A stretch of DNA of 64,000 nucleotides, taken from positions 1 through 64,000 of the forward strand of contig JABCPU010000150.1 of the NCBI GenBank assembly GCA_016800925.1, written 5' to 3'. This stretch comes from Suillus spraguei (lineage: Eukaryota > Basidiomycota > Agaricomycetes > Boletales > Suillaceae). The number at the start of each line of letters is the position of its first letter. Position 1 is the first letter of the stretch. Of the stretch, positions 33,279-61,794 are shown in pieces. The translations under genes were made by a program, and so were the position numbers. The notes beneath the pieces are model-generated. The model did no database searches. It was not told the DNA's origin and was given only the letters and a program-made list of their open reading frames with translations.

Positions 33279-35286
33279 TTAGAATTTCCATCCTCCCGCA
33301 AGTCCCATCACATCAGATGGATCCGTGGCAATCCTAATTAAACCTAGCTTATCCAAAGCAGCCTGGGAATACATATTCACCAAAGGCGTGCCAGGAGCCG
33401 CAGCATTGGGATATTGTAGTGCATTCGAAACGTTCTGGCCGGCGTCCACGGCAAACTGCTTCATGTAGGCAGCGCTCTCTGTACCAGCCTGGAGCATCAC
33501 CTCATCATAGCTCTCATTCGTCCATCCATATATAATCTCGATAAACGAGTGCCCCTGATCTGGACCCCGTAAAGAAGGGAAAGCAGACGGCGCCTCGGAG
33601 TGATTATAGAGTGATGGCAGGAGAGGGACCAAGTCGTATGAGATCAAAACTGCGCTTGATTCCAACAGCAGGTTGCCATAAAACTGGATGCTTTGATGAG
33701 TGGTGCCCTAATCAAGTGAAAAGTGCGTCTCACCACTGTCTGGTTCTGAATCATCACCAGCATTGGCAACGTGAATTCCTCGACAGCCACCCAGAACGTC
33801 ACAATCCTGTCCACGACTCAGCCACCCAAATCAATTGCTAAGCACCAAATGACGTACCTTAGGCTAGGTATCAAAGGTATGGTCTCAGCAAGGCTCACAA
33901 AAGTCCTCGTTGAGATGTTTTTCTCGATGCTTGGGATCGCCAAAAAATCGTCGTAAATGTCACCTGGGTTCGGTCCATCATAAAATAGAATGGCCGTTAT
34001 CACCGTCTATTGTGAAATTAGTTACTCGAATATGGTTCTCACAATTAATCGTAACGCACTGGCTCCCCTATCACGTAGTCGGTTGAGATGTACACAGCGG
34101 CTTTGGGATCAGTGACAGTCGACACCATATTGACTGTAGCATTATTGAATGCATCCCATTCAGCCTCCGCGTACGAGATAAGTCCGCCCTGTAACCAGTT
34201 ACCATTAGGGATTGTACCAGTACAGAAATACAGCGCATACCCAAACTTCAGACTGAGGATGTGCCTTCATGGTCACTGTGGCAACAATTCCCTGCAGCAG
34301 ATCAGCACGTGCACTGACATTTATGAAGCAATATCATTGCGCACAAAATTGTTGAATCCTCCCTGAAAGAAATCATCGTAAATGAGATGCTGACTATCTG
34401 CATGTCAAGATACTTACCCGAAGGGCATAGAATAGACCTGGATTTGAAGATTTTGTGACATTCGTGACTTGGCCATTAGGCAAAACAAGCTCCAACGATA
34501 CGATATTGTCGACCGACAAACCATACTCATTGCTGATGAATGAATATCCTGATCAGAAAACAAAACGTTCAATCGCCAATGTTTTCCACGAGTGGGTGAG
34601 CCTACCTCCTCCAAGGACGAAGCCGCCGACTCCAACACCGAAAGACCTTCCTCCTACAACGGTCACGTTGTATTGTAGGAGGGCAGAATAGACATCTTCC
34701 CAAACTAACCCCATGCCAAAAGTTACTGTCTGAGCATTCTGGTCGTATACGACTTCTGAGAACAGTCTCATAGCAATTTGGACTCCAAGGGTCGATGAAA
34801 ACCCTGGATTTGGTGAATGACCACCGCCCTTGACCTTTAACACAGCCGCCGCATGTGAAGATCAGATTAACCAAATAGTTGATGGACTCACGCCAAATGG
34901 GGTTCGGTTCACGCCCAATATTTGGAGCTAGTCTTCGTTAGCAAGCAGAATCGAACTTGGTATTTTTATTAAACTTACAGCGATTCCGACGTCCTGAGCG
35001 TTCGCCGGCTCAAAGGAGCATGTAGAATTTTGACTATTGGTAAAAGACCAATTCGCTGTATCATTGCCGAATTGGGGCGACCCTACAGATTGTTTAGTCC
35101 CTCTTGCGGCAATGAGTACTGAATGCACTCACCGTAGTAATATACATTGGATGCAGAGGAGACAGAGGCAGCAATCTCCTGGCAGGTCGCATTATAGTCA
35201 ACTCCTGAGCCTGTCCACAGTCCTGTGGACGTGAAGAGGTTGATGAGGCCTGAGATAACTGACAAAGGAACTTGAAGGAGCGTCAT
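33279..35286 (-). CDS. Secreted FAD-linked (berberine-bridge-like) oxidase, copy 1, intact
   Basis: This is a predicted secreted flavoenzyme of the VAO/PCMH FAD-binding fold that oxidises a small substrate (sugar, alcohol or alkaloid-like) with O2. The actual substrate is unknown. Exons (minus): 35286-35133, 35082-34979, 34927-34892, 34834-34606, 34548-34418, 34362-34345, 34291-34241, 34188-34060, 34006-33858, 33806-33734 and 33683-33279, totalling 1479 nt (492 residues) with no internal stop. A signal peptide (VPLSVISGLINLFTSTG) is followed by a mature N-terminus with conserved Cys pairs. The FAD region has VKGGGHSPNPGFSST, whose His is the usual covalent flavin anchor, then GMGLVWEDVYSALLQYNVTV, VGVGGFVLGGG and NEYGLSVDNIVSLELVLPNG. 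The C-terminal substrate/BBE-like part ends DPSDVMGLAGGWKF. I do not see the second (Cys) flavin link. Exon 6 is only 18 nt (GGFNNF). It is the leftmost of five related copies. Confidence 0.9.
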
Positions 35287-37335
35287 TTGCTTTGACGAGA
35301 GAATAAAACATCAGCGGTTTTCAGCATGACTCTTCAATTAAATCAGAAAATTCAGAAGGCATGAGAAAGCCGCCGCCACCGGATCGAGAGAATAATAGCA
35401 AAGCTCTGAATTGGGTTAGAGTCAGGAGCGAGTGGATCAACTACATGATGATGATGCAAGAGCCGAAGCGCTCACCTCAACGACTGTTAGACCCATCAAA
35501 ACACCGCTAGTGTGTATAGCCGGTTACTGCCTTATATGCGTATGGCTTACAAACCCTCCAGGATCGTTCATTCTTGATGATTATATGGATGCATCGTTTG
35601 ATATGACAGATATGTCTCTTGCAATCCTCATTGCCTTTTAGTTGAGTTTCAAAGGGTTTGTTTGTTTCCCGAATACACGAGGACCCCTACAATATTTCTC
35701 GCATTGGGGTCCACCATTTGCTGACTAGACCCTCGTCTGCGTACCCACGAGACTTAAGGATAATTAGACAAACTCAGCTGGGCTGAGCCCAAGAATTGAG
35801 GAGTCCTACTAGTGCACTCCTTGATTTAACATCTGTGTATTTAGCGGTTGAACCGCTACAACCGTCACTGTCACCCTGCCGCAGCCAACGTCACACCTCG
35901 TCGAGGAACAATTGTATGTATTTTTAACTGTTCTCCGTTGTTCTGATTGTCTTCATTCTTAAGTTTTGTGACATCCAAATGCAGTCAATGTCGAGCATGA
36001 GGCACCTAATTGGAGTGTAGTTCCGGCCTCATTAATCATTGGTTCAATACTACACCGGCTCACTGCGCGAGTTCTCCGCCTTTCTTCGCTTTATTCATGT
36101 GAACCATACATCTGATAGTACTGTCCATGAGACCGTTTGACGGACATGAACCTTGTCTCTAAAAGGCATGGTATGATTTGTGTTCGACCGGCTGACAATT
36201 GTCAACCCCAGACTCATCAATCCCTTGATAAGCGCCCATATTCTGATAGCCGTGTTACCCGCAGTGACTTGTTTCGTACTGCTGCCTTCAATGTCTGTTT
36301 GCGAGTTACTGCAAGTCGACGAAGGCTGCGCGGGAGTGTGGCAATCGAAACTTCAACTTTCTTTGCTTCAAGCAGCTACTCTCGAATTTCGTCGAGAAAT
36401 AGGGATGGCTTGACATCAAGAATATCTAATATCTCCACGCTCAGCACCTCGCCAATGAGCTACTAGTAGTTTACCATACGCTATTTCACAGCTACTAACA
36501 CCTCCGTCTCAGGTCAGCGCTCCGTGCCGCTTGTCATGCCTACATTATTGTGTCATAGGATGAAGGTGCGCTACAGCTAGGTATAGTGGTATTTATGATC
36601 TATTTCCAACTTACATTAACATCAAAAATATCCAAATCCACCGTAGACATACTTTGATGTATCCGTCAAACTCGACTTAAGGACGACGAGGAGATACAGA
36701 CAGGCAGCGGCTATCCGAGTCCCATAATCTATAGCATGGGACAGTAGCGTCAACCCAATCTCCGTCACTCATGATCTTCTGCGATCATCGCATCAGAGAA
36801 TTCAGTCCTGTTGTACTATGTACTCTTGCGGTTTAACCTCGACGATTGGAGTAAGAGCCGGTGCTTCTCGAGCCGGAAGCAAGTGTCAACACCATCATTG
36901 CCAGCGCAGATGAGTCTCATCTCACTCTAACCAGAGTAGGTCATGAACCAAACAGTGACGTGCCACCAAATGGTGTCTTTCACCGAGGACAACGGAGTCA
37001 CAGAACAGTGGCAAAATTCTAGAATGTATTTCCCTTTGCCTCATAGGTACGTGTATTGGTGATTGCCGTCCGCAAGAAGTGCTAACTTCAATCAGATTGT
37101 CACGAGTTTTTGACTCTGCTATGATAATGTATGTTAGATGCCACTGTGACCTTAGGAATGGCATTATAGCCACGGCAGCCTGATGTTTTACAGGACTATG
37201 CTAACTGTTGTCTTGGACTATCTCGATGCGTGGAGCTTGCCTTTGTCGTAGGACTGACATGATACATGAAACATATCCCCATCTCAAGGTGCTTCGCTAG
37301 TTTCACTCATGTGAATGCTCTACCTGTAGACCACG
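35287..37335. other. Gene-poor 2 kb between oxidase copy 1 and the WD40-tail fragment
   Basis: The first 200 bases are the upstream side of oxidase copy 1. The rest has short open frames on both strands (longest about 109 codons plus, 36137-36466) without recognisable domains. No gene supported. Confidence 0.4.
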
Positions 37336-37900
37336 CTACGAACATAGTGAAATTGCCATGATACAGAAGGACCTGAATGAACGCTGGAAGCTTGAAGGAT
37401 AGTATGACTGAAGGCGTGAGTCGGCTTGATTGGAATTCTTCGGTACTGAAGCAGAAGACGAGGCTGTAACTTCGGTGAAAACAAAACATGAAAATAGCAT
37501 ATGAAAATGAGATACATACTTCAGGGTGACCAGTTGCATTGAATTATCGGCCTCATTGTCATTCATACATTGTATATCTGTAGTCGCTTCTGCATCAGAT
37601 TCAGGGGTGGTGCAATATCTCTGAATATGTTTGAATAGGATGAAATCGGACCAAAGGCAAGTCACTCGCATCTTCATTGCCAGCAGGAGCTACTTCGACA
37701 GTGCGGCTGGAATTTCCTACGGAAAATAAGTTGAAATTCCAGATGCCAAAATGTACGGAGCCAAGTAGATGGGTAAATGAATGAGAGATAATGGACCCGC
37801 AGGTTGAGTTCGCGATAAGACGCATGATTTACATAAATTGTAGGCGAATAAATTATTGCCCTGTATCAAAGTTAGTTGGGCAAGAGCCGAGGAACGAAGA
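37336..37900 (-). pseudogene. Inverted partial copy of the WW-WD40 gene's C-terminus
   Basis: The minus strand encodes FNLFSVGNSSRTVEVAPAGN followed by EDASDLPLVRFHPIQTYSEI, nearly the same as FNLFSVGNSSRTVEVAPAHD and the residues after it in the gene at 45-47 kb (plus). The next exon-like part, TPESDAEATTDIQCMNDNEA, also matches TPESDAEAAAAMQRTNDNES there. Upstream there is LNLRVHYLSFIYPSTWL-type sequence in a shifted frame. No WW or WD40 repeats are present, so only the tail was copied and inverted. Confidence 0.7.
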
Positions 37901-39147
37901 AAATTCTACTGACATATCTCACTGAGCCTCCAGTATTCAATCCTGTTTGAAGTGCATTGAAAATCTAGCAAAAAGCTACCGAGCAAGTCGATGCCGCTGT
38001 GATTGGATTTCTTCAGACATGTGAAGTACTATAGACAGTGTACATGTGCATAGCTTGAAAGTTGAGAACCTTGTCGCTGTGTCGGTGGAGGATGCAAAAC
38101 TGATACGGGAAACCCCGGACCCGCGACTTCTCTTCCCACTGACTCCCTCTTTTTACATAAATATGAATTGTCTAAACTTCAAGTTCAAAGCGCTTGGCTT
38201 TTCAAATTCACGACCCAACAATTGTTACTCGGTAACTGGCCACCTAGCCAGGCTACGAGAGACATTGATTTGAGTTTCATATATATGCAAGCCAATGTAA
38301 CATGGTCAGACCGCCGCCCGCATAACCGTTACACCAAAAGGTGAAATACTGAAAGCTTAGCTTTCAGCATCAGCGGCGGTATATGTACTGATTATGGGAA
38401 CTCAGGTAAGCCAGTGTGCTTACAGCCAAGTATCATAATTTCCCTCAGTTATTCCTGACCCTCATGATGCTGCGGTTTTTCGCCATTTTACTCCAATGGT
38501 CGATCGACAGTCAGCGCTCTGGTGTAACCTCAAGACATGTTGCCGTTTAGCATTTTCATACATGATACACTAACATTATTTGTAGCATGATCCATAGCCT
38601 TCTGGGTCATGTCCGTCCGCTTCAAACGGGAAATGATCTCGGAGGTTCAGATAAGGATTCATATTGGAGGAACATCCTAATTCGACTTGTGCTCTTGCCA
38701 GCTGTTGGCTTATGCATTGTGGTTGCGACAACCATTGTACTCACGACAAGGCCACCAGTCTCTTCCAAGGCTATCGCCGACTAGAAGCAGTTACGACCTT
38801 TCAAAAACCCCGTTTTTGCGTCCGCATTCTACCATCCTGAGGGACGTCAAGGTTATTACGGTACAGGTACTTACCACAGTTGTCCATGCTTGAAAATATG
38901 ACAAGACCTTTAATTTCCGTTTCAGAAACTCTACTATAGATGCGCATTGTTCGTATTTGGCTCTTTTGATATCTTTACTAGTATATAGCAGCAGCGATAG
39001 TGGCTTTCGTCTGTGCGGCCTTGGCAGGATAATCGCCCACACAGATCACTGGAACCAATTCTACTCGTTATGATACTAAGGGTTCGCATGCTGTACTTGT
39101 AAGTTGCTCGCAATAATCTTCGTGTACAAGAGTTATATGCTTCTCGA
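37901..39147. other. Gene-poor, with one membrane-anchor-like frame
   Basis: At 38587-38784 (plus) a short frame gives IRLVLLPAVGLCIVVATTIV, one clear hydrophobic span, then ends. It may be a leftover exon of a membrane protein. Bases about 38800-39110 duplicate 32630-32960. No complete gene. Confidence 0.35.
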
Positions 39148-39900
39148 ATGTCCAGTCAGAATTTCCGTCCTCCCACATGTTTCATCACATCATGTGGGTC
39201 CACAGCCCTCCTAATGAAACATAACCTCACCAAAGCATTCCCATACATATCCACCAAAGGTGTACTAGGAGCCGTAGCATTGGGGTATAGTAATGCATTC
39301 GCAACGTTCTGGCCAGCGTCCACAGCAAACTGCTTTCATGTAGGCAACGCTCTCTGTGCCATTACCTTATCATCTGTCGGATGCACCATCCACATATCAT
39401 CTCAATAAACAAGTGCCCCTGTCCTGGATCCCGTAAAGAAAGGAAGATGGCGCCTTGGGGTGATCATAGTTGATAGACTCATTGTAAATAGGGTCTGTTC
39501 CTTGGCCAATATTTGGAGCTAGTCTTCGTTAGCAAGGAGAATTAAACATTAAACTTACAGCGATTCCGACATTCTGAGTATTCGTGGGCTTAAAAAGCAT
39601 ACAGGTTTACAGGAGTGTCACTATTGGTATAAGACCAATTCTCGATATCATTGATGAATCGGGATGACCCTATGGATTGATTGGTCCCTTTTGCAGTAAT
39701 GAGTATTGAATACAGTCACCTTCGTAATACATATTGGACGCAGGGGAGACACAGTGAGCAATCTCATAACAAGTGTTGATATAATGAAGTATCTCGGGCC
39801 ACATATCGTTCCACATCGAGAGAATAAAAGCTCTGAATCAGGTTAAAGTCTGCACAACTATTACACGATGCAAGAGCTCACCTCGGCGAGAGTTTGGTTG
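39148..39900 (-). pseudogene. FAD-linked oxidase copy 2, internal-deletion relic
   Basis: The region at 39148-39465 matches the last exon and stop region of the other oxidase copies (shared blocks GCATTCGCAACGTTCTGGCC and CAGCGTCCACAGCAAACTGC), with small indels that break the frame. From about 39505 the sequence jumps straight to the part found around exons 1-3 (the TTGGCCAATATTTGGAGCTA and GTCTTCGTTAGCAAG blocks, then the exon 2 equivalent to about 39800). Everything between, including the FAD-binding region and the VGVGGFVLGGG segment, is gone. The upstream flank at about 40040-40160 matches that of copy 3. Not functional. Confidence 0.85.
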
Positions 39901-40552
39901 GTATTAAACTCGGACTTGCCCTGAGCATGGTTTCGAGAAACTCGAACGAACAGAGTCGGATCCGAGGGTAGAAAATCACTGATATGAACACTTAACTTAG
40001 ACGCCTTACGGACGCTTTACAGATGCCAATGTTCAGCTCACCACATCTGACTGATGGACGCAAACACTTGAACCATTGTCTATACAAACTCGGTACTGAA
40101 CATATGATAACCACCGATGAATTCTCCGCAAGGTGGCGCTGTCCGCAACATTTCTAGTATTCTCGATTCTTGAGGCCGTTGAAAGACGATGTTGTGTAAT
40201 CAACGTCAGGTCATAACAAGCTATCTTCCATTCAGTGATGTGTAACCCTCACTTTTTCCTGCACAAGAGCACGTTTAGACTTGTGGCAACAACAGGAAAA
40301 ATGACTGAATGTAAAAGTGCTATCGAATAATTATGCATCCGAATGCGAACACGTCTGAAGCTCAACTTGTGTCAATTCATGCGTCAATTGAGAGTGTGCG
40401 GTCCTGGACTGAGTAGATAAGTCGCGGACCTTGGTGGTGCAAAACTGTAGGTGCATCCGGGTAACGACGATCGTGTGCATGATGATTTGAAATGTCGCAA
40501 ACATGTTCGAGTAGCTGAACTACGTAAAAATTATCAGGACACTCAGCCGATA
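39901..40552. other. Upstream flank of oxidase copy 2
   Basis: Contains CATCTGACTGAT, TATACAAACTC and GGCGCTGTCCGCA blocks shared with 49680-49800 upstream of copy 3. This shows that the duplicated unit included promoter-side DNA. No gene. Confidence 0.55.
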
Positions 40553-41899: not shown

Positions 41900-42719
41900 G
41901 CTTAGAGAGCTGGATGAAGAAAGGCACTACTATCGCTGATCACGGTAGTGTAAGGCTTGCGGTGGTTCGAAGGGGAAAAGAGAATAGAACGAGAGAGAGA
42001 TAAGAGAGGTGAGAGGCGATAGCGGCGAGGGACGGATCGACGTAGTTAGGACACGAACTGGACTATACTTTCGAGAGAGGTTAGCAGACAAGACGTTCTA
42101 AGGACTTTCTAAGGTGCTTTTTGAGCGGGGAATCTAGGATAGAATTCGCTGTCAAGTAAGGAATGTACATGCGCTAGTTATACTGCGAAATGGTAAGGGT
42201 CCTCGGCGACGGATGAGCCGAACGATTAGGTGAGAGCGGAGGCAGAAGAGAGTGGCGTCGCGCTTGACAGGGTAGAGTAGAACGGAGAGAATGAGAGTAC
42301 GAAAATTTGAATGAGTGGCGATATAATGACGAGAGTTGCATAGCATGTAGCATGTGGTCGGTCTCGAACGTTCCTAGTTTGAAGCGTGGTCCGCGCGTAG
42401 AGCACGTGCGGTCCTTACAGTAGGCAGAATATATAGCAACCAACAAAATTCCAATCAGGGTCATTATCCATAATGTCAAGCGTGATTCACCAGGACTCAC
42501 GCTGTATAGCAACATGATAAGTAACCATGTCAAGCAAGGGAAATGAAGGGTCAAAGATCTTTGACTGGTGAGCACCAAGTGCCAAGCACGGGCACCGCAC
42601 GCATAACAAACCTTACATTCAGGGTCGTCAACACCTGCGAGCGTGTAACTATACGGTCCCATACCCTGGTGGTCGACTTATGAACATTTTGTGAAAGTAA
42701 ACATGGTCGTCAAATTGGA
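41900..42719. other. Intergenic, purine-rich
   Basis: A strongly GA-rich stretch (about 41960-42040, with GAGAGAGATAAGAGAGG) upstream of the DUF6533 gene could be promoter or 5' leader sequence. The 162-codon minus frame at 42174-42662 has hydrophobic parts but no recognisable domain, and I do not call it. Confidence 0.35.
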
Positions 42720-43551
42720 CTATCTGTGACAGCTTGCTGTACCCTGGCACCAGGATATGCCAGCACCATCTTTAGCCTTCACAACCTCGTCATCATTAAA
42801 CTGAATGCGGTGGACAAGAGCCTTGTAAGTATCGCCTGTGATAGCCTTTCCGTGTACATTCTGCGAGAGTAAGGGCACAATAATCGCGCCACTGTGACCA
42901 CCGACAACAGTTACCGGAGAGTCTGCGGGTTTGGCTCCTGCAATGCCAGCGGTGAAGCAAGCGGCACGAACGACATCAAGGGTCGTTACACCAAATAAGC
43001 GAGTAGGGTTGTAAACGCCAGCTTTCCGAGAGGTAATAATGGGAACAGTCGAGTTGACACTGAGGATTTGAGATGACAAGAATGTGGGAAGTAGGGGCGA
43101 CACGGTCAATTGCTGCTGCAAGGTTACAGACAATGGAAGACACAAACAACTTGCATTATATAGATCATCACGAGTCATCTATAAAAAGGTATTAGAGTGG
43201 AGTAATAGATGAATTATAAGACTTGCGCCGGGCTGAAAGGCAGGGTCAGGACTAGAAAGCATGAGGATAGAAAGAGGAAACACATCTTTCTTGGGACTCC
43301 AGCAGGGATGACAACGACTTGGACACCGTCAAGGGCTTCGTCAAGCTTGTCTGCAGGATAACCCTTGACCTCGGAAGTTGATTGAATTATTATCCTATGA
43401 TTGACATATGTAGCAAGTAATGTCGTACCTCACTGTGAGCGTCGACATGCCTTACTACATCAGCTGCGACACCAGGTGCGCCACAGATATCATAGAGACT
43501 GAGAGAGGTAACGAAGGGATCAGTCTTGAGAAGGAGTGACAATAAGGGAGT
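42720..43551 (-). pseudogene. mdh: Mitochondrial-type malate dehydrogenase pseudogene
   Basis: Malate dehydrogenase interconverts malate and oxaloacetate with NAD. The minus strand preserves the middle of the enzyme: [51 protein letters not shown] and PAGVPRK, then MTRDDLYN, SHILVISNP, VNSTVPII, GVYNPTRLFGVTTLDVVRA, VGGHSGAIIVPLL (catalytic His) and VVKAKDGAG. The N-terminal NAD-binding GxGxxG part and the last third are missing. Frameshifts separate MTRDDLYN, the ISNP block and VNST. The sequence after KDGAG runs into a stop at 42720. Introns are still present, for example GTGAGG...CCGAG before KGYPADK and a GC-type donor GCAAGT before MTRDDL. It therefore arose by DNA duplication, not retroposition. 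Not functional. Confidence 0.85.
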
Positions 43552-45132: not shown

Positions 45133-47132
45133 ATGACTTCATGGAACCGACCTTTACCAGGAGTATGATTAGGTGAGCAAAGAAAGTGTCCACCAAGAGC
45201 GACAAGTTTATGGAATAACATAGACGATCCTGGGGATCTCGTTGTTCCCGGATACGAATGGTACATTTCACCTATTGGTCGGTCCTACTTCGTCGACCAC
45301 AACACCCGGACCACATCGTGGAAGAAACCAAAACCAGAACGTCCGGCAGGAAGCTTGACACCAGAATGCATCATCGAGGGTCACTCAGGATGCATATGGA
45401 ACCTCGCCTACTTGGGTACAAGTGGCAATATAATGAGCACGTCCCAGGATAGTTCAATTCGTCAATGGAAAAGAAATGGAGAGCCAGTGGGAAAGCCTTG
45501 GTATGGTGACGGAGGAGGGATAGGCCCAATGGCAGTATCCCCGGACGAAACAACGGTCATTGGCGGAAGCGTAGACGGCAGGCTGTGGCTGTGGAACATA
45601 AAAGAGGACAGAATGATCGGTGACCCGTGGGAGGGGCATGATGATGTAGTCAGGTGCCTGGATTGGTCTCCAAATGCCCTGGAGATTGTAAGTGGATCTG
45701 AAGATGGTACTATACGACGCTGGGACCCGTATGCTGGTCGACAAATAACGCCACCCATAAAGACCAGTCATAGATGGGTTCTCGCCGTCAAATACTCTCC
45801 CCAAGGCGACAAATTTATGAGCGGCGGGCGCGGTGCGATTTGCGTGTGGTCAAAGGATGGCAAGTTGCTCACCGAGATCAAGGGACACGACCGTGGGGTG
45901 ACGTCATTGTATTGGTCCAAGGATGGTGCATACATCTTCTCTGCCTCACACGACACTACCATCCGGAAATGGCGGTTGACCGATGGCCAGGAGCTCGTCG
46001 TTCTTCAGGGTCATACCAATTCTGTTGCATCCTTCTGTCTCACTCTCGATGAAAGATATATTATTAGCGCATCAAATGACTACTCCATTCGCATCTGGGA
46101 CCTCAAAACCAATCGATTGATCGGTGATCTACTCTTGCATGACGACCAAGTTTTCACTGTTGCTGTGTCCCCTGATGGAAAATATATCGCCAGTGCTGGA
46201 GCAGACAAAAAAATATATGTATGGAGTCTGGAGGCAGCGCTCGATCGATATGGTGGTGATCAAGTGGGTGTACGTATGTGCTTTGGTGCTTCGATCTTCT
46301 TTTCTAGTGGTTTTGATTGTTTACTGTAGGGTGCGAATGATGTCAATGCAAAGCTCTTGAAGGCAAGTCATCTCTGCTTTTCTTTCAAGTTCATCCTCAC
46401 CGTGACTTTTTAATAGGGACGTCCGGCCCAACCGAGAGTTGTACGCCAACCAATCGTGAGCAGCCTTATCCTGTATCATGTCTCGCTATATTCTCAATAA
46501 CCCTCTGCACCTCAAACAACAGGCCAATACCGGAGGCTCAGTGGGATATGTCAGTAAAAAATTTCCTTCTTCAGCTTCTGCCTGTCTGAATTTGATACTG
46601 AAAGGGCAATGATTTTTTACTGGTGATTTAAATGACACACCTCGTCGCGAAGCTCAACGAGCAAGTCTATCGTCCCTCATTCATTTGCGCCATCTGCTCG
46701 GTTCCATACATTTCGGCACACAACCTGCAAATGCATCCGAACCAATTGAACGACACCCCCGACACTGGAATTTCAACTTATTTTCCGTAGGAAATTCCAG
46801 TCGCACTGTCGAAGTAGCTCCTGCTCACGACGAAGATGTGAGTGACTCGCCTTTGGTCCTTTTTCATCCCATTAAAACACATTCAGAGATATGGCATCAC
46901 CCCTGAATCTGATGCGGAAGCAGCCGCAGCTATGCAGCGTACGAACGACAATGAGTCCGATGATTCAATGCAACCAGCTCGCCCTGAAGTGGGGGCACAA
47001 GCATCTCAAGTACGACCGATCCAGACGCACGCACAGGGCTCAACTGGTGGTGCGGAAGACATTGTGTATGAAGGAGTGAGCTGCTGCGGATTCTTCTTCG
47101 GTCGTCGTCGTTCCACCTCGCTTCGGTCATAA
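45133..47132 (+). CDS. WW domain plus seven WD40 repeats protein, ends uncertain
   Basis: This is a scaffold-type protein. The WW domain (about 45246-45335: GYEWYISPIGRSYFVDHNTR then TTSWKKP) binds proline-rich ligands. About seven WD40 repeats follow (45355-46245), with units such as EGHSGCIWNLAYLG, EGHDDVVRCLDWSP, KGHDRGVTSLYWS and QGHTNSVASFCLT. Repeats end in xWD/xWS-like motifs, consistent with one beta-propeller. After a GT-AG intron, short exons give NDVNAKLLK, then a GC-AG intron (GCAAGT donor at about 46363), GRPAQPRVVRQPI and ANTGGSVGY. The tail LNDTPRREAQRASLSSLIHL to SSRTVEVAPAHDED and RYGITPESDAEAAAAMQRT ends at 47132. Two oddities: the likely first exon from ATG 45133 (MTSWNRPLPG) meets TGA before a good donor, and the run of six T near 46613 puts the tail one base out of frame. 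Either the gene is decaying or the sequence has errors. Confidence 0.75.
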
Positions 47133-47527: not shown

Positions 47528-49502
47528 TTAAAATTTCCATCCTCCTGCGCGTCCCATCACATCACCTGGGTCCACGGCACTCTTAATAGAATGTAACCTG
47601 CCCAAAGCATCCCCATACATATCCACCATAGGCGTGCCAGGAGGCGCGGCATTAGGGTATAGTAGTGCATTCGCAACGTTCTGGCCAGCCTTCACGGCAA
47701 ACTGCTTCATGGAGGCAGCGCTCTCTGCAGCAAGCTCGCCCATCACTTTATCGCTTGTCTCAAGCGCCCACCCACATAACACCTCAATAAACGAGTGTCC
47801 CTGTTCCGGACCCCGTAAAGAGGGGAAAGCAGACGGCGTCTCGGAGTGATTATAGACTGATGGTAGGAAAGGGGTGAGGTCGTATGAGAGGAACGTTGCG
47901 TCTAAATGCGATGCCCGGTCGCCAAGTGCCTTAACTCCCTGGTGAGTAGTGCCTTGATCAGGTGAAAAGTACGACTCACCAGCGCCTGGTTCTCAACCAT
48001 CCACAGCATAGGCACTGTGAATTGCTCAACAGGCACCCAGTGGGTCACAATCCTGTGTACAAGTGAGCCAGTCAAACCAATTGCTAAACATCATGACATA
48101 CCTTGTTAGGGGCGGTGTCATAGGAAAAGACTTGATAAGATTCAAAAAAGTCCTTGTCGTAACGTCTTCTTGATGCGACGGGATGTTCAAAAATTCGTCG
48201 AACATACCGTCCGGACTGGTCGGTGCATCATAAAACAGAGTGACCATCATCGCTGGCTATTGACAAATCAGTCACTGGTATATAGTTCTCATAATCAATC
48301 ATAACGCACCACCCCAACTACCACATGCATGTAGTCGATCGTGATGTACATACAGGCTTTGGGATCGATGACCTGTGATACGAAATTAGCTGTAGCTTCA
48401 TTGACTCGTCCCCATTGATCATAGGTGTACCAGAGACTCCCGCCCTGTAATCAGTTACTATTAGGATCTTACCAACACAGAAATACGGTGCGTACCCAGA
48501 CTTGAGACTGGGGATGCGTCTTCATAGTCACTGTAGTAACAATTCCCTGCAGCAGATCAGTATATGCACTGACGTCTGTGAAGCAACACCATCACGCACA
48601 AAATTGTTGAATCCTCCCTGAAAAAAATCACCAGAAATAAGATGATAGCTATCTGTACTTCAAGACTTACCCGAAGGCCATAGAATAGATCTGGATGTGA
48701 GGAACTTGCGATACTCGCGACCGTGCCATTAGGCATAACAAGCTCCAATGATACGATATTATCGACCGACAAACCATACTCATTGCTGAGATATGAATAT
48801 CCTGATCAGAAAATAAAACGTTCAATCACCGATGTTTCCACGAGGAGGTGGACCTACCTCCTCCAAGGACAAAGCCGCCAACACCAACACCAGAAGACCT
48901 CCCTCCTACAACGGTCATGTTGTATTGCTCGAGCGCAGAATAGACGTCATCCCAAACCAACCCCATGCCAATAGTTGCTGTCTGGGTATTCTGGTCGTAT
49001 ACGACTCCTGAAAATGATGTCATAGCAATCAGGACTCCAGGAGTCGATGAGAACCCTGGATTCGGTGAATGACCGCCACCTCTAACCTTTCACATAGCCA
49101 CCGCGTGTGAAGATCAAAATGCAAGCTAGATGATAGTTGATGGACTCACTGCAAATGGGGTCTGGTCATGGGCTAATAATCCGAGCTAGTCTTCGTTAGC
49201 AAGCTGAATTAAACGTTGAATTCTATTAAACTTACAGCGATTCCAACATCTTGAGCGTTCACCGGCTCAAAGGAGCATGCAGGAATTTCAGTATTGGTCA
49301 TAGACCAATTCTCAACACCGTTGGCAAAATGGGACGACCCTATGGATTGCTTAGTCCCTCTTGGAGTAAACGAGTATTGAATGCATTCACCTTCGAAATA
49401 CACATTGGACGCAGATGAGACAGAGGCAGCAATATCATTACAGGTTGACCGATAATTGGGCGACAAGCCAACGAAGCCTGCTAATGGACCTTGGAGTGTC
49501 AT
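47528..49502 (-). CDS. FAD-linked oxidase copy 3, intact but with a shortened signal region
   Basis: It has the same exon layout as copy 1, and I find no frame break when its exons are read through. Landmarks: VRGGGHSPNPGFSSTPGV, GMGLVWDDVYSALEQYNMTV, VGVGGFVLGGG, GIVTTVTMKTHPQSQVW, TPPLTR, IVTHWVPVEQFTVPMLWMVE, and the end DPGDVMGRAGGWKF. The N-terminus is MTLQGPLAGFVGLSPNYRST, lacking the hydrophobic ISGLIGLFxSTGL stretch of copies 1, 4 and 5. Secretion may therefore be lost or weakened. The segment between the last intron and SYDLTPF (GVKALGDRASHLDATFL) differs from the other copies, showing real divergence. Its upstream flank matches that of copy 2. Confidence 0.85.
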
Positions 49503-50580: not shown

Positions 50581-50837
50581 GTTTCTTGCCCTGAACCGCC
50601 ATGCTCTGCACCACCAACGACAGTGACAGTGACGAGTCTGATGGTTTTCTGCGTGCCTTTACACTAACAGAAGCAGCACTGTGAGTATGTTTCTTATAAT
50701 ATTTACTGAAACTTTCTTAGTTTTGTCCCCCAAGCTGGCATTTCTGCCCACAATGTCTTCACCTGTCAATGAGCCGCAATTTCAGTCTGTCCTCGGTCGC
50801 TGTGGCGCGCAAGTCTCAAGCCTGAGACTATCAGAAC

Positions 50838-51180: not shown

Positions 51181-51249
51181 AATCTTGCTTGCAATATCGG
51201 CGACACTTCGACTTCTGCTCTCACTTCTGGAAAACAGATATTGGACGGG

Positions 51250-54200
51250 GACTGTTGTACAGGTCACAGCACCATCGTTTCGTGTTGACTTTAGATGGAG
51301 TTCTGCAAAACCCACCCTCGCACCACAGAAACCTGTCAGTATTCGTCATCGATCAAAGCATTTATATATGATATACTACAAGTACATTAACTATAGCCAT
51401 CCACTACGAAAGACCTAAACGTCTAGTTTGTTAATATATTGTTCGGATACCCAACGCAGGCAGTTAGAATTTCCATCCTCCCGCGAGTCCCATCACATCA
51501 CCTGGATCCACGGCACTCCTGATAGATTGTAGCGTTTCCAAAGCATCACCATACATATCCGCCAAAGGCGTGTCAGGAGGCGCAGCATTGGGATATATTA
51601 ATGCATTCGAAACGTTCTGACCAGCGTTCACAGCAAACTGCTTCATGTAGGCAGCGCTCGCTGTACCAAGCTGGAGTATCGCCTCATCATCGTTCGCATC
51701 CGTCCACCCATATAAGACCTCAACAAATGAGTGCCCCTGCCCTGGGTCCCGTAAAGAAGGGAAAGCAGACGGCGTCTCGGAGTGACTGTAGAGCGATGGT
51801 AGGAGAGGGACGAGGTCGTATGAGACAAAACTGCGCTTGATTCCGACAGCTGCTCGCCATAGAACTGAGTGTTCTGGTGAGTGGTGCCCTGATCAGATGA
51901 AGAGAGCGACTCACCAACGTCTGGTTCTGAACCATCTGCACCATAGACAATGTGAATTCCTCAATAGGCACCCAGAGGAACATAGACCTGTTTCTAACTG
52001 AGTCAGCCAAACCAAGCGTTAAAATAGGACGTACCTTAGGCCCGATATCAAAGGTAAAAGTTCAATAATGCTCAAATAAGTCCTCGTGGAGATGTCCTGC
52101 ACGGATGAGATTGCTAAAAATTCGTCGAAAATGCCATCCGGTGGAGTCGGTGCATTATAAAACAGAATGGTCAATATCGCTCCCTATTGGAAATCAGTTG
52201 CTCGGAGATGGTCCTCACAATCAATCGTAACGCACCACCCCTTCCACGTAGTTAGTTGTACTGTACATGCAGGCTTTGGGATCGGTGACATTCGACACAA
52301 AATTAGCTGTAGCATTATTGAATGCGTCCCATTGATCCTCCGTGTACACGATACTCCCGCCCTGCAATAAATTACCATTAGGATCATACCAATGTAGAAA
52401 TACGGTACCTACCCAGACTTGAGACTGGGGATACGTATTCAAAGTCACTGTGGTGGCAATTCCCTGCAGTACATCAGCATGCGCACTGGCGTCTGTGAGG
52501 CAACACCATCACGCACAAAGTTGTTGAATCCTCCCTAAAAAATTCACCGAAAATGAGATGCTGACTGTCTGGATACAAGATACTTACCCGAAGGCCATAG
52601 AATAGATCTGGACTTGAAGAACTTGTGATATTCGCGACCGTGCCATTAGGCATGACAAGTTCAAACGATACGATGTTGTCTACCGACAAACCATACTCAT
52701 TGCTGAGATATGAATATCCTAGTAATAAAATGTTCAATCATCGATGGTTTTCCACGAGCAGGCGAACCTACCTCCTCCAAGGACAAAGCCACCGACCCCA
52801 ACACTACTAGACTTCCCTCCCACAACGATTACATTGTATTGTTCAAGTGCGGAATAGACATCTTTCCAAACCAACCCCATGCCAATAGTCGCTGTCTGGG
52901 CACTCTCGTCGTATACGACTTCTGAAAATTGAGTCATAGCAATTTGGACTCCAGGGGTCGACGAGAACCCTGAATTCGCTGAATGACCACCGCCTTTGAC
53001 CTGTAACATAGTCGTCGTGTGTGACGATTAAACTGAGAGCTAAATACTAAGTTAGTAGACTCACTGCAAATGGGGTCTGGTCCTTGGCCAACAATTGGAG
53101 CTAGTCTTCGTTAGCAAGCAGAATTGAACTTTGTATTCTATTAAACTTACAGCGATTCCGACGTCCTGAGCGTTCGCGGGCTCAAAGGAACATGCAGAAT
53201 TTTCAGTATTGGTAGTGGCCCAATTGTCGATATCGTCATTGTATTCGGACGACCCTATGGATTGCTTAGTCCTTCTTGCGTAATGAGTATTGAACGCACT
53301 CACCGTTGTAATATACTTTGGACGCAGATGAGACAGAGGCAGCGATCGCCTGGCAGGTCGCATTATAGTTAGTACTCTGCAGCCCCGTGGATGCGAACAG
53401 GCCAATGAGGCCTGAGATAGCTGCGAAAGGACCTTGAAGGAGTGTCATTAGCTTTGACGAGAGAACAGATAATCAAGCGGTTTTCAGCATGACTCTTTAA
53501 ATCAGAAATTCAGAAGGTATGAGAAGATTACCACCAAATATGCTACATGGCGTTCCACAGCTTCGATCGAGCAAAAGTTCTGAATCGAGGGTTATGCAGA
53601 TGAGTCGGTGAAGGGAATCTAAGCTGTTATCGATAGAGTATGGCCGGTAGGAACGGTAGAATGATGGGGGTACGCCTCAACATCGGGAAATTCATTATTT
53701 GGAATGCAAAAGGACACTGGGTATAGACTGGTCTACTCAACCAGGGTTGTTACTAACTTGTTAAAAGAGTTAAAACATTAACTGATTTGCAATTTTGGGA
53801 GGGTTAGTAGAGTTAGTGTACTAGAATTCATTCGAGTTAATAGGACCATAAACAGCATGAGCTGAAGCGTAATGGTTAAAGGAAGCTGAGAGGGTGATCA
53901 TCGTCGTTGGACTGTAATATGGTAGTCTCGGGCCGAGGTGCAGAGCATCGGGTAACGGGCCGTGCCAATTTCCAAAGAAAACATTTGTAAATTCGATTCC
54001 TCGTGTCCGAGTTCAGGAGTCGTCAATCATTATCTTTGATCTCTCTGGTTCTCTACATTCCATTCTCCTAGGATCGTAGTGTCTCTCCAAGTCGATATGT
54101 GGAGAAGCCCTGGCAATGAAATCATTTTCATCAGAGGACTACAAAGGTCGATCAAGTGATAGAAGGCACGTCAACGTGTGGTTTAGGTTGCCCGTGGGAA

Positions 54201-55600: not shown

Positions 55601-55666
55601 ACTGATGCTAGTTCATGTTGAGATATGCCTTCCTAAGCTACAGGTTTCGAACAGACCACACTACCC
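53449..55666. other. Duplicated non-coding DNA upstream of copy 4
   Basis: Mostly shared with 61795-64000. A plus frame, 54343-54585, gives VVEKAAKRFADTLPTVYSAM and RRKTLGITSIGFGC. It lies in the part not shared with the right copy and has no family that I recognise. No gene called. Confidence 0.4.
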
Positions 55667-56713
55667 TTAGATAACATCAACCAAAATGGTAGGTTGCCTC
55701 GTTAGAGGCGATAACCTCATGCTCTTTCGAGGTTTACGCGTCCTGGGTTGCACAGGAGACGACCTGATAATTCGGGGTTGTCCGTCCTTCTTAGGCCTCA
55801 ACGTTTTGTAGACCTGCCATTCCTTCCCCTCAACGGTGATGCTACCGAGGTGCTTGGTGTTCTCTTGGTCCGCAGGTTCAGTCTGTATCTGCGGGGCTCT
55901 CAGGGCAGGCAGCGTCGATCGAACTTGGGGCTTGAACGTGGGGTCGATTATGACAGTCCCGTGTGGTCCGAGCATGGGAAGACCTTGTGAATTCAATCTC
56001 TCACCCGTAGGTCCAACTCCAAACTTTGATACTTCCTCTTCCTCTTCGATAAAGATAGACGGCGCGGGTGAGGCAAAGTGAACTTGTCTTGCAGTGCCCA
56101 CACCAGCAGACGCATCCACTATTGGCAATATTGAATTCAATTCTCTTGCCACCCGTTCTCTCTCTTCGTGGCCTAGTAATTTTCCCACTTGAGTCAAAAA
56201 GGTCTCCTGGTTCCTCTGGAACTCGTACTCGAGAATTTGCTCTTTTGTCAAGTTCGTCACAGAGCCCATGGGTCTCTGCAATACATATCTCATGCGAATA
56301 CCAGAGCTAGTCTGCTCGATAGTGTGAGTTCCCGGTGAATGGTTGTGCCAGAAATCGATCCCTTCAAAGCCGATGCGCTCGGGGCTGCGCTGAAGCGGCC
56401 GGGGCCTCTTGACGGGTGTGCGAAGGACAGAGCCCGCGTCGAACGCATGCTGGGTCATAGGAGTCTGAGGAAAGCACTTCGTAGTGCTCGGAGGTGGCGT
56501 GGCGTCCCCCTCCACATCCATATCCATGCTAGTTTCTTCTTCATTGTCGTTGGTGTCGTGCTCGGGGTAGATCCAGCGCGTATGAGCACCAAGACCAGTA
56601 GCAGTTTGTGTGATCATAACAGACGTGCCATCTACATCACGGCATCTGAGGTAGTAGCCCTTGAGTTTGCCACCCTTGGTCTGGCGTGTGACATTGTAAA
56701 TGCGAGATGGCAT
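55667..56713 (-). CDS. Unknown charged protein, probably nuclear
   Basis: Intronless frame of about 348 residues from ATG 56713 (MPSRIYNVTRQTKGGKLKGY). A longer frame from 56818 would add a hydrophobic, less protein-like leader. I recognise no family. Visible features: a compact N-terminal segment with GYYLRCRDVDGTSVMITQTA and RWIYPEHD; an acidic linker; a basic TPVKRPRPLQRSP patch; a helical middle, LTKEQILEYEFQRNQETFL, with LGHEERERVARELNSI; an EEEEEVSKFG patch; and a very basic tail, RTRKPRKSMRLSP. The charge pattern suggests a nuclear or chromatin-associated protein, which is inference. It lies between the two arms of the segmental duplication and is itself single-copy in this window. Confidence 0.65.
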   Translation of the reverse strand: MPSRIYNVTRQTKGGKLKGYYLRCRDVDGTSVMITQTATGLGAHTRWIYPEHDTNDNEEETSMDMDVEGDATPPPSTTKCFPQTPMTQHAFDAGSVLRTPVKRPRPLQRSPERIGFEGIDFWHNHSPGTHTIEQTSSGIRMRYVLQRPMGSVTNLTKEQILEYEFQRNQETFLTQVGKLLGHEERERVARELNSILPIVDASAGVGTARQVHFASPAPSIFIEEEEEVSKFGVGPTGERLNSQGLPMLGPHGTVIIDPTFKPQVRSTLPALRAPQIQTEPADQENTKHLGSITVEGKEWQVYKTLRPKKDGQPRIIRSSPVQPRTRKPRKSMRLSPLTRQPTILVDVI

Positions 56714-57816
56714 TGTAGAGTATCGCGACGCGTGATAGGGGTGTAGGTATTGAAAACGAAGCAAATGGTTCAGTAAAAGTAGAGGGTGTTGGTAAACCTG
56801 GAAAGCTCGTTCAGCCACTCAAATACGTTTCCTCGCAGGCCTTGCTTTGGCGGGAATGTGGGTGAAAGAATCCTTTGGGGCTTTGTCCACGGCGACTGGC
56901 CGCTTTGTCCACCCTTTATCTTCGCTGCGCATGAGCTACCATTTCAGGACAGTTGTCCCCAGGGGCGGTCACATGCTGGTTCTCTGACTCAGCTAGTTGG
57001 GCGCACCTGGCGTGGTCACAGCCTAAGCGCTGATAGGCGCGAAATTTGCTAGCGAGGTGACTCAGTGGTTTGTAGCAGACTGGCGTGGGAACCATGAGTG
57101 CTTGAGCATGAAGTGGCGTCCAACCAGAATCACCGCCACGTGGACAACTTCAAGTCTTTCGGAGTCTATTGAATGGCTGAGGGAAGTTTCATCAGCTTTA
57201 CTTCGTTGTCATGATCATGTGGACTAATGTTCTACCATTTCAGAGACTCGAGTGGATTCCTCAAGCAGATTCTGCAACCAAGTTCAAACACGCGTACGGC
57301 CTTCGAACCATTAACACGTCATGAGACAGGTTACATGTCGGTGCGTTGCTGACCGCAAGACTGACTGCTGATGTTTGAGCCTGGTGGCTAGCTAAGGAAT
57401 ATCTGCTGTTACAATAGAAGTAAAAATGCCAAAGAACTTTCAAAGGATCCGAAACTCAGTGGTCACCGATCATTAGCTCTTTGGCACTCTGAAGTTTGAG
57501 CGACTTGTCGTTTAAACTCAAGCGCAGAATGTTATCACGTTCACCACCTCATCGCGGAGTCAGAAAACACATTGATCGATGAGTTGTGGTCATTTACACA
57601 CCCACAACGTCCACAGTTGAAACCGTTAAAGGCCGTACTTCCATACAAGCGCGATGTTCCAAAGCCAAGATCTGAACACAGCGCCTCAAGACACTTTGTC
57701 CACGCCCAACCACCTGCAAGAAATATGTTCTCCAAGTTACTATACCGTCATATCTCCTTCTTCCCGCAAACACCTGCTGGATTCAGGATGTTGAACCCCC
57801 CGAAAAAGCCTTACTT
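56714..57816. other. Intergenic
   Basis: No supported gene. The plus frame 57572-57841 shows no domain. Its end overlaps the beginning of the pseudogene that follows. Confidence 0.4.
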
Positions 57817-58912
57817 TTGTCCCTCCATTTTTTTCGCGTAATCCTCTACCGTGCGTCTCCTCCCCTTCGAGTAGCCCTGCCTCAGCTAACATTTCTCGTG
57901 TCAGTCGTCTACCCAAGAATGCTGCCTCAAAGCTCTTCAATAAGAGCGTTTATACCAAGGCAAACTCTGGCACAAACGCTTCACTTACCATCTGACAGTC
58001 ACTCACCCTGGACTCCTTCGCAAAGGCCCTCGGTTCTGCAAGCCAGCGAAACTCAGGCGCAAAAAAGCGACAGTAGCTCTCGATGACCTCACAAATGTCG
58101 CCCTCAAGACTATGCTGATCAGCTGCGCAAGCACACACTTGGAGATGCTAGAGAGATCGTCGCACGGGCTGTAGCGTTGGGTCCGCAACGTGAGTGAGTT
58201 GGAGCACGCAGAGCGCGACCGCCGAGCTGCTCTCCGATTAGAGGAGGACGCACGGAGGATGAGAGAAGAGGAGGAATTTCGCCGTTTGGAGGAGGAACGT
58301 CAGCGGTGACAGGAGGAGAAGCGTAAACAGGAGAAATCAGGCGCAGACTTGAAGAATCTAGGCGCCGCGCAGAGGAACGGGCAGGTCTTCAGGAGCAGCG
58401 TGATTTCCAGGCCAAACGAGAGGCTTCGCGTAAAGCCCAGGAGGAAGCTGAATGTCGGGCCCGTGAGCAAGCAGGGCAGCGCCTTTGTGAAGAAGCTCAA
58501 CGGCAAGAGAGGCAGCACCAAGAAGAATTTCGTCGCAACAAAGTTCAAGGGGATCTAATCGCCTTTTTCTAGCTCTACGACGCAAAGTGGCAAGAGCTCA
58601 AACTGAGCAAGAAGTTTGCTCTGCGAGATGCCGTGGCCCACCTTTCAGCAAGGTTGCGCATCCCCAAATGATATTTCCCGCGGCAACATGGAGGAATTCA
58701 TTTTCCACCTCCTCCGCCCAGGGATGGAGACCAAGTCGCAGATGGACCGACTGAAGGCAGAGATACTTCGATTCCATCCCAATAAGTTTAACTCGCACAT
58801 CGTGCGGAAGTTGCGGGAGTGTGATAGAGAAAAGGCGATCGAAATTGCGGAAGCGTTGGCTAGAGTGCTGACAGACATGATGGTTGAAGAGATTGAGAAA
58901 GAGACAGGTTAA
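57817..58912 (+). pseudogene. Decayed relative of the 21-24 kb coiled-coil/NFKBIL1-like gene
   Basis: A Ser/Pro-rich start (PRQTLAQTLHLPSDSHSPWT) is followed after an in-frame TGA by DYADQLRKHTLGDAREIVAR, then EHAERDRRAALRLEEDARRM and EEEEFRRLEEERQR to TGA 58307-58309. A shifted frame continues the coiled coil (RLEESRRRAEERAGLQEQRD) to TAG 58570-58572 and LYDAKWQELK. The first frame returns for the C-terminal domain: LLCEMPWPTFQQG, MDRLKAEILRFHPNKFNSHI, VRKLRECDREKAIEI and ALARVLTDMM. This tail aligns with LNWDDFPWPVF, IRRWHPDRFE and VVRVLNDLLR of the intact gene, with HPD replaced by HPN. Overall order (Ser/Pro, coiled coil, tail) is conserved but much shortened. Two or more stops and two frame changes indicate a pseudogene. 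Confidence 0.75.
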
Positions 58913-59797
58913 TACGTCAATATACTTATACTGGTGGTTAGAAATTCTATGCGGCGTAGTCAGAATATGTCTAATATGCAATCATATGGCTACGAAACCG
59001 TATTTAACTTTGCAGGTGACAAGCAAGTCCTCACGGTAGCACAAGTCTCTAAATTACAAGACATGATGAGGCTGACAAAGTTTCGCCAGCTCAAGTGCCC
59101 GTTTTAGACTGTAGTGAGGGTAGGAAGCTTCAGACCTCGAGGCTCGTGGCTTTAGCACATCAACCCACTTACCAAGGGACCAGAGACGGCCATTTCCTAG
59201 CCAAACAGAAATTTGGTATCTCCGTGCAGAGGCGATGCTGGACTTCAGCATCAGCAGTTTCAGACGCCACCGCCGTAACGCAACGTTAATGTCATCATTA
59301 GAAATGTAGTATACATAGTCTACGTGTGGCCCAGAGTTTCGCCAACCTGGAAAAACAACCAGCCTCATACACTATCCAGGCTGCGTATGCTACTGAGAAT
59401 TGATCTTGATGAAAAACAGTAGCTAGCAAAACACCGGGAAATATTAGAAAGAGCCATACAAAGTAAACTGAAAAACAAGTTTACCTGCGAGGGGAAAGGT
59501 TAGAAAGATCCGGATAAGCTCAAACTAACAACAGGTTAATTCGGAGAGTCGTTGAAAGTTTGATAGAAGTAATATGAACTGAATTAAACTGATATTGGAC
59601 AGGGACTGTCGGGCAGGACCATCCTCACACCTGGCTTCTCTCAACGTTCTGCAAAACCCACTCCAACCACACCTTACAATACAGAAACCGTCATAGATCA
59701 AAGCATTGATCATATATGACATACAAGTACGTAACTATACCATTCCTTCAAAAAGACCTAAACGTTTAGTATGTTAATGATACCAAACGCAGTCCAG
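58913..59797. other. Intergenic; start of the right duplication arm near 59580
   Basis: A minus frame of 104 codons (59368-59054, ending KRALELAKLCQPHHVL) has no recognised family, and I do not call it. From about 59580 the sequence matches the 3' flank of oxidase copy 4 (TTCTGCAAAACCCAC and AGACCTAAACG blocks). Confidence 0.4.
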
Positions 59798-61794
59798 TTA
59801 GAATTTCCATCCTCCCGCGAGACCCATCACGTTATTTGGATCCACATCACCCTTAATAGATTGTAGCGTACTCAAAGCATCACCATACATAGCCTCCAAA
59901 GACGTGTCAGGAGGCACACAATTGGGGTATAGTAGTGCACTCGAAAAGTCCTGACCAGCCGCTGCAATAAATTGATTCATGTATGCAGCGCTTTCTGCAC
60001 CAAGCTGCATTATTGCATCATCATTGCTCGCATCCGTCCACCCATATAGGATCTCAATAAATGAGTTCCCCTGTCCTGAATCACGTACAGAAGGGAACGC
60101 AGACGGGGTCTCGGAGTGATCGTAGATTGATGGCAGAAGAGGGATGACGTCGTATGAGATGAAAGCTCCGCTCAAGTCCCACACTGCCGCGCCATAAGAC
60201 TGAATGCTTTAGTGAGTGGTGCCCTGATCAGGTGAAGAGTGCGACTCACCAGCGTTTGGTTCTCAATCATCTCCAGTATAGGCACCGTGAATTGCGCAAG
60301 AGGTACCCAGTACCACGCAAACCTGTCGCCAACTGAGTCAGTCAAACCAATTGCTGAACACCATATGTTGTACCTCAGGTCCTGTATCGGAAGTAAAAGC
60401 GAAAGAATGCTCAAATAAGTCCTCGTGGAGATGTCCTGCACAGATGATGGGATTGCCAAAAGTTCGTCGAAAATGCCATCCGGTGGAGTCGGTGCATTAT
60501 AAAACAGAAGAGTCGCCATCACTGGCTATTGGGACATCAGTTGCTCGGATATGGTCCTCACAGTCAATCGTAACGCACCGCTCCAACCACGTAGTCAGTT
60601 GTACTGAACAGGCAGGCTTTGGGATCGGTGACAGTCGACACAAAATTAGCTGTAGCATTATTGAATGCACCCCATTGATCCTCCGGAAATGTGATCATCC
60701 CGCCCTGTAATCAATTACCATTAGGATTGTACCAATACAGGAATAGGGTGCGTACCCAGACTTGAGACTGGGGAAACGTATTCAGAGTCACTGTGGTAGC
60801 AATTCCCTGCAACATATCAGTATGTGCACGGACATCCGTGAAGCAACACCATCACGCACAAAATTATTGAATCCTCCCTGAAGAAATTCACCGAAAATGA
60901 GATGCCAACTACCTGCGTGTCAAGACACTTACCCGAAGGCCATAGAATAGATCTGGATTTGAAGAGCTTGTGATATTTGCGACTGTGCCATTAGGCATGA
61001 CAAGCTCAAACGATACGACATTGTCAACCGCCAAACCATACTCATTGCTGAGACATGAATATCCTAATCGGAAAACAAAACGTTCAATTATTGATGTTTT
61101 TCCACGAGCAGGTGACCTACCTCCTCCAAGGACGACACCGCCGACACCAACATTAGTATCCTTCCCTCCTACAACGACCGTGTCGTAATCTGCAAGTGTG
61201 GAGTAGACATCTTCCCAAACCAACCCCATGCCAATAGTCGCTGTCTGGGCACTCTCGTCGTATACGACTTCTGAAAATTGAGTCATAGCAATTTGGACTC
61301 CAGGGGTCGACGAGAACCCTGGATTCGCTGAATGGCCACCGCCTTTGACCTTTAACACATCCGCTGTGTGTGACGATCAAAATGCAAACTAAATAGCTGG
61401 TGGACTCACTGCAAATGGGGTTTGGTTCTCGCCCAATATTTTGAGCTAGTCTTCGTTAGCAAGCAGAGTTGAACTTTGCATTGTAATAAACTTACAGCGA
61501 TTCCGACATCCTGGGCGTTCGCGGGCTCAAATGAACATGTAGAAGTTTCAGTATTGGTAAGAGCCCAATTGTCGTTATCGTCGTTGTATTCGTTCCCTAT
61601 GAATTGCTTAGTCCCTCTTGCGGTAACGAGGGTTGAATGCACTCACCGCTGTAATACACGTTGGACGCAGAGGAGACATTAGCAGCGATCGCCTGGCATG
61701 TCGCAGTATAGTCAGCTCTCCGCAGCCCTGTAGACACGGAGAGGCCAATGAGGCCTGAAATAACTGCCAAAGACAGGGTAGGAAAGAATGCCAT
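59798..61794 (-). CDS. FAD-linked oxidase copy 5, intact
   Basis: It has the same exon plan as copy 1, with every exon I read staying open. Signal peptide: LSLAVISGLIGLSVSTGL. FAD region: VKGGGHSANPGFSSTPGV, GMGLVWEDVYSTLADYDTVV, VGVGGVVLGGG and NEYGLAVDNVVSFELVMPNG. Later exons give GIATTVTLNTFPQSQVW, PIQDLR, FAWYWVPLAQFTVPILEMIE, and the last exon SYGAAVWDLSGAFISYD to DPNNVMGLAGGWKF. The C-terminal exon differs from copy 4 at many positions (for example AGQDFSSALLYPN), so the two are not a very recent duplicate. Unlike copy 4, the ISYD junction keeps the frame. Confidence 0.88.

Follow-up and report, generated by a model that had tools for sequence, protein, structure and literature searches.

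The window analyzed here, 64,000 nucleotides of the forward strand of contig JABCPU010000150.1 (C315 below) from the ectomycorrhizal bolete Suillus spraguei (assembly GCA_016800925.1), carries five copies, A to E, of a gene for a flavoprotein with the FAD_binding_4 (PF01565) domain (FAD, flavin adenine dinucleotide). We favor, with a probability of about 0.62, the reading that they belong to a lineage-specific birth-and-death tandem array of VAO/PCMH flavoproteins, the survivors of which were diversified by positive selection. Manual and scripted splicing gave copies A, C, D and E a common plan of 11 exons and ten introns (41–64 nt, all GT..AG) on the minus strand. The members of the array, two regions of copy E and two members further along the contig are as follows.

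33279..35286, minus strand: copy A, 11 exons, 492 amino acids, reading frame intact; public model P0023
39153..39474, minus strand: relic of copy B, piece with most of exon 11 (gene positions 1670–2006)
39466..39751, minus strand: relic of copy B, piece from the end of exon 1 to intron 3 (gene positions 123–408)
47528..49502, minus strand: copy C, 11 exons, reading frame open, 484 amino acids; public model P0024 has 481 amino acids through another acceptor
51464..53448, minus strand: copy D, 11 exons, one nucleotide short in exon 11; public model P0004
59798..61794, minus strand: copy E, 11 exons, 488 amino acids, reading frame intact; public model P0001
60250..60704, minus strand: exons 8–10 of copy E (60579–60704, 60374–60525 and 60250–60322), much of the substrate-binding domain
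61121..61349, minus strand: exon 4 of copy E, which begins with the GGGHS histidine block and takes in the flavin loop
78.6–80.3 kb of C315, outside the window: F, two opposed 5′ fragments
96.0–98.0 kb of C315, outside the window: copy G; public model P0010

The initial annotation had described an 11-exon plan on one strand with one deletion relic and one frameshifted copy, and splicing bears this out. Its figure of five members holds for the window, but the array runs on through F and G to 98 kb of the contig. It had also counted three intact secreted copies. The reading frames of A, C and E are indeed open up to the conserved ..GGWKF terminus, but the signal peptide of C is doubtful, which makes that description too generous. 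The relic B has lost exons 4–10 and the beginning of exon 11. Copy D is out of frame in exon 11 through the single missing nucleotide, as had been described, but public model P0004 uses a later intron-10 acceptor that keeps the frame and leaves the protein shorter there. Judged by its sequence, copy D may be impaired rather than dead, and its lesion may be an assembly error. The public model of E, P0001, retains intron 9 as coding sequence (505 versus 488 amino acids); the splicing of this intron is backed by P0002, the orthologue from S. decipiens. For copy G, our model loses the frame from exon 7 onward, which the public model avoids.

A search of the whole genome (86.2 Mb in 1256 contigs) with copy E as query returned 17 matches, a lower bound. 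These include additional copies or pieces on C307, C727, C516, C609 and C865, and weak matches on C406 and C722. Haplotype pairs do occur in this assembly: C307/C727 are 99.0% identical over 7.4 kb, C516/C609 99.2–100% per block, and C865/C315 98.5% over 10.4 kb, with 98.5–99.3% in the longest blocks. Such pairs raise the possibility, named by the initial annotation as fatal to its proposal, that the copies are artifacts of assembly, either duplicates or separated alleles. The exons of A, C, D and E, however, are only 75–84% identical to one another (16–25% different), against 98.5–99.3% for the true haplotype pairs, and because of this we reject assembly duplication, which can be practically discounted. 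In S. decipiens, moreover, the orthologues of A, D and E occupy contigs 48,911 and 289,708 bases long. Diverged further than alleles are, and with orthologues known from a sister species, the copies form a tandem array of true paralogues.

Redundant copies decay through frameshift, deletion or rearrangement, and the haplotypes differ in this respect. C609 (at about 26.4 kb) lacks some 2.37 kb that in C516 (about 29.1–31.5 kb) carry most of an oxidase gene, and the C516 copy bears an in-frame stop. The oxidase at C307:120581-122560 is open, whereas its allele at C727:21030-23008 has a frameshift in exon 1, which reflects either a null specific to one haplotype or a mistake in the assembly. Searches with copy E and with the stretch at 35.8–47.3 kb found no second haplotype for those parts of the array. 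In all, six loci or alleles are broken or doubtful (B, D, F, G, c516/c609 and c727, the lower-case names denoting the oxidases on the respective contigs).

The history of the copies was read from a tree of 43 rows; the homologue list comprised the best 120 of 784. The S. spraguei and S. decipiens copies form a single clade of 12 rows (support 100/100), which divides into a D/E/G/c307 group and an A/C/c516 group. Copies A, D and E have one S. decipiens partner apiece, and C groups with two proteins of that species. Because of these pairings, the duplications that separate at least A, D and E are older, on the sequence evidence, than the split between the two species. Among the best 120 homologues, three relatives from S. 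lakei lie on one contig and fall outside the 12-row clade. For two other relatives, P0005 and P0011, the contigs are 1561 and 1675 bases long and contain an unbroken frame of 491 amino acids; these are probably transcripts, since a gene with ten introns would not fit into so little sequence.

The assignment to the FAD_binding_4 family and the tandem-array reading of the initial annotation are supported by the spliced genes, the domain matches and the fold. PF01565 matched A (2.8e-19, 69.6 bits), C (8.9e-25, 87.4 bits) and E (6.5e-22, 78.2 bits) against a cut-off of 26.4 bits; the S. decipiens orthologue of D, scanned in place of D, scored 83.1 bits. The suggested second domain, PF08031 (BBE), failed its curated cut-off in the Pfam scan of the E orthologue (15.4 versus 20.6 bits) and did not appear among the matches of A, C and the D orthologue. 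All NCBIfam matches were far under cut-off, the best being to BagK/FevA-type FAD oxygenases. The predicted model of A has a mean pLDDT (predicted local distance difference test) score of 90.8, with residues 1–26 below 50, and its closest fold is that of EncM, a bacterial FAD oxygenase of the VAO/PCMH superfamily (Protein Data Bank 4xlo, 3w8w and 6fyd).

Residues were counted over 80 aligned family members. The flavin histidine of the GGH motif is present in all 79 letters of this column. The cysteine that would carry 6-S-cysteinyl FAD is found in none of the 80, and the bicovalent BBE/AA7 type does not apply; two other cysteines (35 and 73) are invariant in all 80. A GGH histidine without the cysteine is the sequence pattern of the monocovalent 8-alpha-histidyl VAO type. 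Because of fold and motifs, the family is placed with the monocovalent (histidyl) VAO/PCMH flavoproteins such as EncM, the covalent linkage being predicted from sequence and model. The missing cysteine alone does not exclude AA7 clade II (6yji), because this clade too has a monocovalent histidyl tether, according to PMC8035211. The AA7/BBE-like oligosaccharide oxidases (6y0r, 5k8e, 1zr6 and 6yji) have the two-domain VAO/PCMH fold in common with the array family. Identity to the array enzymes, which are eukaryotic and carry a signal-like N-terminal stretch, is about 20% for EncM and 17% for the bacterial 6-hydroxy-D-nicotine oxidase (2bvf) and McrA (9r43). Closer relatives are the Agaricomycete "FAD-binding domain-containing proteins" (e.g., P0073, P0107 and P0120), which have the same flavin motifs and align with more than 90% of E at 46–50% identity.

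Secretion, which the initial annotation had stated for the array, appears likely from N-terminal hydropathy for A, D and E. A hydrophobic stretch is present there in A, D, E and G, and in P0018 and P0026, the S. decipiens relatives of C. Copy C itself has lost most of this signal-peptide core, and its secretion is doubtful.

The residue evidence on the use of O2 is mixed. By the rule for BBE-like enzymes, as set out in PMC4898691, Gly and Val at two gate positions mark the O2-reactive oxidase type. This pair is found in the seven S. spraguei and five S. decipiens rows of the array clade, and in 54 of the 80 family members overall. The first gate position is Ala in six relatives from other Suillus species (P0009, which is from S. 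americanus, P0013, P0014, P0016, P0019 and P0020) and Gly in P0006 of S. subalutaceus; the six may differ from the array copies in their use of oxygen. The rule for AA7 enzymes points the opposite way. AA7 oxidases conserve a re-side histidine, the loss of which in AA7 clade II accompanies weak oxidase activity, as stated in PMC8035211. None of the 80 family members has this histidine (Phe 48, Ile 14, Val 13, Leu 4 and Thr 1), and EncM has Leu144 in its place. The oxidase step of our account is weakened because of this absence. Together with the closest fold, EncM, and the Ala gate of the six relatives, it speaks for enzymes that are dehydrogenases, or EncM-like flavin-N5-oxide oxygenases, and not H2O2-forming oxidases. 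We regard this alternative as unlikely, if worth keeping in view. The oxidase-type gate pair of the array copies stands against it, as does the replacement of EncM Thr139, a residue of the O2 pocket. The alignment with EncM has no gaps over the loop of this pocket. The position of EncM Thr139 is Val in 63, Ile in 16 and Leu in one of the 80 proteins, and Thr in none; with Val165 at this place in the array copies, EncM-type N5 chemistry is disfavored. Residue 161 of A, at the position of EncM Val135, which lines the O2 pocket in EncM, is Arg or Lys in 77 of the 80.

We fitted codon site models to five sequences (A, C, D, E and c307) with our own implementation of GY94 rather than PAML (F3x4, M0 branch lengths then scaled, naive empirical Bayes for sites). 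Twice the log-likelihood difference, the likelihood-ratio test (LRT) statistic, was 40.4 for M2a versus M1a, 41.6 for M8 versus M7 and 40.8–40.9 for M8 versus M8a. The last value became 34.3 with gap-adjacent codons removed, 18.7 with multi-nucleotide changes allowed and 19.3 with both. The four open copies alone gave 34.5, or 14.9 with multi-nucleotide changes. The maximum in 150 null simulations (one M8 start, M0 branch lengths fixed up to scale, no multi-nucleotide changes) was 11.1. Over three topologies, the statistic was 13.4–16.2 for codons 1–221, 18.0–19.9 for codons 222–441, 8.6–11.0 for codons 222–330 and 18.6–19.9 for codons 331–488; with multi-nucleotide changes, it was 7.3–8.9 for codons 1–221, 7.4–8.3 for codons 222–441 and 13.4–15.4 for codons 331–488. 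The codon models detect positive selection on the array copies, and diversification is supported at the level of sequence. Posterior probabilities above 0.8 were obtained for 22 codons: 14 in the substrate domain (E codons 222–441, with boundaries read from predicted secondary structure), seven in the FAD domain and one in the first 28 codons.

In ten pairs among the five sequences, the ratio of nonsynonymous to synonymous divergence (dN/dS) was 0.43–0.61 in exons 1–3, 0.27–0.53 in exons 4–7, 0.61–1.60 in exons 8–10 and 0.45–1.29 in exon 11, exons 8–10 being the highest group in most pairs. At the 84 columns that are at least 97% conserved in 72 relatives outside the array clade, the five sequences deviate at 5–8. 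H62N and S66T occur in all array copies compared. The nearly invariant Phe at position 337 of A, in the substrate domain, is Thr in A, C and c516, Trp in E, c307 and G, and is kept in D; codon 334 of E, which encodes this Trp, is among the selected sites. Introns of E differ from those of c307 and G by 6.6–7.6%, exons by 11.4–12.5%, and the flanks of E and c307 by 11–16%. We do not accept the faster divergence of exons as sufficient evidence of selection by itself. The introns evolve more slowly than synonymous sites, and in E/c307 also more slowly than the flanks, and a control pair of second-clade oxidases, C418/C406 (dS 0.29, intron divergence 0.18, dN/dS 0.51), likewise has introns that lag behind synonymous sites.

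Several results weigh against positive selection as the driver. Overall dN/dS lies at 0.45–0.97 in 27 non-allelic pairs and exceeds 1 in none. The site test errs slightly on the liberal side, since 21 of the 150 null replicates exceed 2.71. Allowing multi-nucleotide changes, the fitted rate of which is above zero, about halves the signal, and the resulting 18.7 has no matching simulated null; in codons 222–330 alone the signal then disappears (1.5–2.1). Selected sites are not significantly enriched in the substrate domain (32 of 220 versus 21 of 240 codons, Fisher p 0.058), and relaxed constraint can account for part of the high dN/dS. Relaxed constraint might even be the whole explanation, with redundant duplicates drifting to death and the site signal being a product of gene conversion, multi-nucleotide changes or minor misalignment; the six broken or doubtful loci fit such a history, and in the first 250 columns the quartet patterns are suggestive of local exchange between E and G. 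This we consider doubtful. The value of 18.7 is above all 150 null simulations (run without multi-nucleotide changes), dN/dS in exons 4–7 stays low, and S. decipiens retains orthologues of A, D and E. Gross recombination as the source of the codon signal was rejected, as the same one of the three topologies was best in all four segments. The initial annotation had offered dosage and diversified substrates as alternatives. Retention of many copies for more of one enzyme would suit tandem copies on one strand, but the divergence among their exons, the selected amino-acid changes and the broken copies led us to reject dosage, which is very improbable. Diversification of substrates receives indirect support from the site models and the substitutions of Phe337, to be set against the pairwise ratios.

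The surroundings gave no sign of a biosynthetic cluster among ten neighboring open reading frames (ORFs) scanned with Pfam (seven of the 88 ORFs of at least 105 amino acids, and three shorter). Other features of the window are as follows.

29548-30699, minus strand: piece of a Peroxin-13 gene with SH3 domain, a housekeeping neighbor
37533-37742 and 46765-46974: inverted repeat of 210 nt, 87% complementary, with similar sequence on contigs of the WD40 family
41945-42330: repeat of about 380 bases inside the array, with 13 listed matches of 86–92% identity on other contigs; probably what is left of a transposable element
42723-43429, minus strand: malate/lactate dehydrogenase gene fragments between B and C (Ldh_1_C 55 bits, Ldh_1_N under cut-off)
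45169-46326, plus strand: WD40-repeat gene of a large repeated family, with an N-terminal stretch that we read as WW-like

Copies of the WD40 family lie on C406, C722, C491, C754, C672, C418 and C420; a more distant FAD oxidase is also found on C406, C722, C418 and C754.

In the birth-and-death account that we favor, the product of each working copy is most likely routed into the secretory pathway and would hold its FAD through the one histidine of GGGHS. Motifs and fold suggest that a small organic substrate is oxidized by hydride transfer to the flavin, and that the electrons, more probably than not, would pass to O2 and form H2O2. After duplication the FAD core remained conserved. By the codon models, positive selection altered a minority of codons, the substrate-binding domain having more of these than the FAD domain; because of this pattern the copies probably differ in substrate. 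A bolder and rather unlikely extension is an arms-race-like set, in which secreted monocovalent flavin oxidases of the fungus oxidize small molecules derived from host or competitors, the copies being retuned one by one (including Phe to Thr or Trp at A337) and redundant ones dying, partly in one haplotype only. The AA7 galacturonide oxidases of the oomycete Phytophthora, which oxidize plant elicitors, are likewise secreted, lineage-expanded enzymes of a plant-associated microbe, as described in PMC12537922, and may offer a lead as functional analogs. Their flavin is Cys-tethered, and they belong to another branch; nothing points to pectin substrates for the array. If true, the arms-race extension would make the array a basidiomycete counterpart, from another flavoenzyme branch, of these oomycete oxidases.

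Our searches of the open-access literature, with subscription papers mostly outside their coverage, turned up no description of this array or of selection acting on its copies, and no characterized member of the basidiomycete branch. The array is a good case of birth and death in a known enzyme superfamily. With several paralogs, orthologs in a sister species and a short list of positively selected codons, it offers a compact natural experiment that bears on whether mycorrhizal fungi diversify their extracellular oxidation chemistry, and on the role of the large group of "FAD-binding domain-containing proteins".
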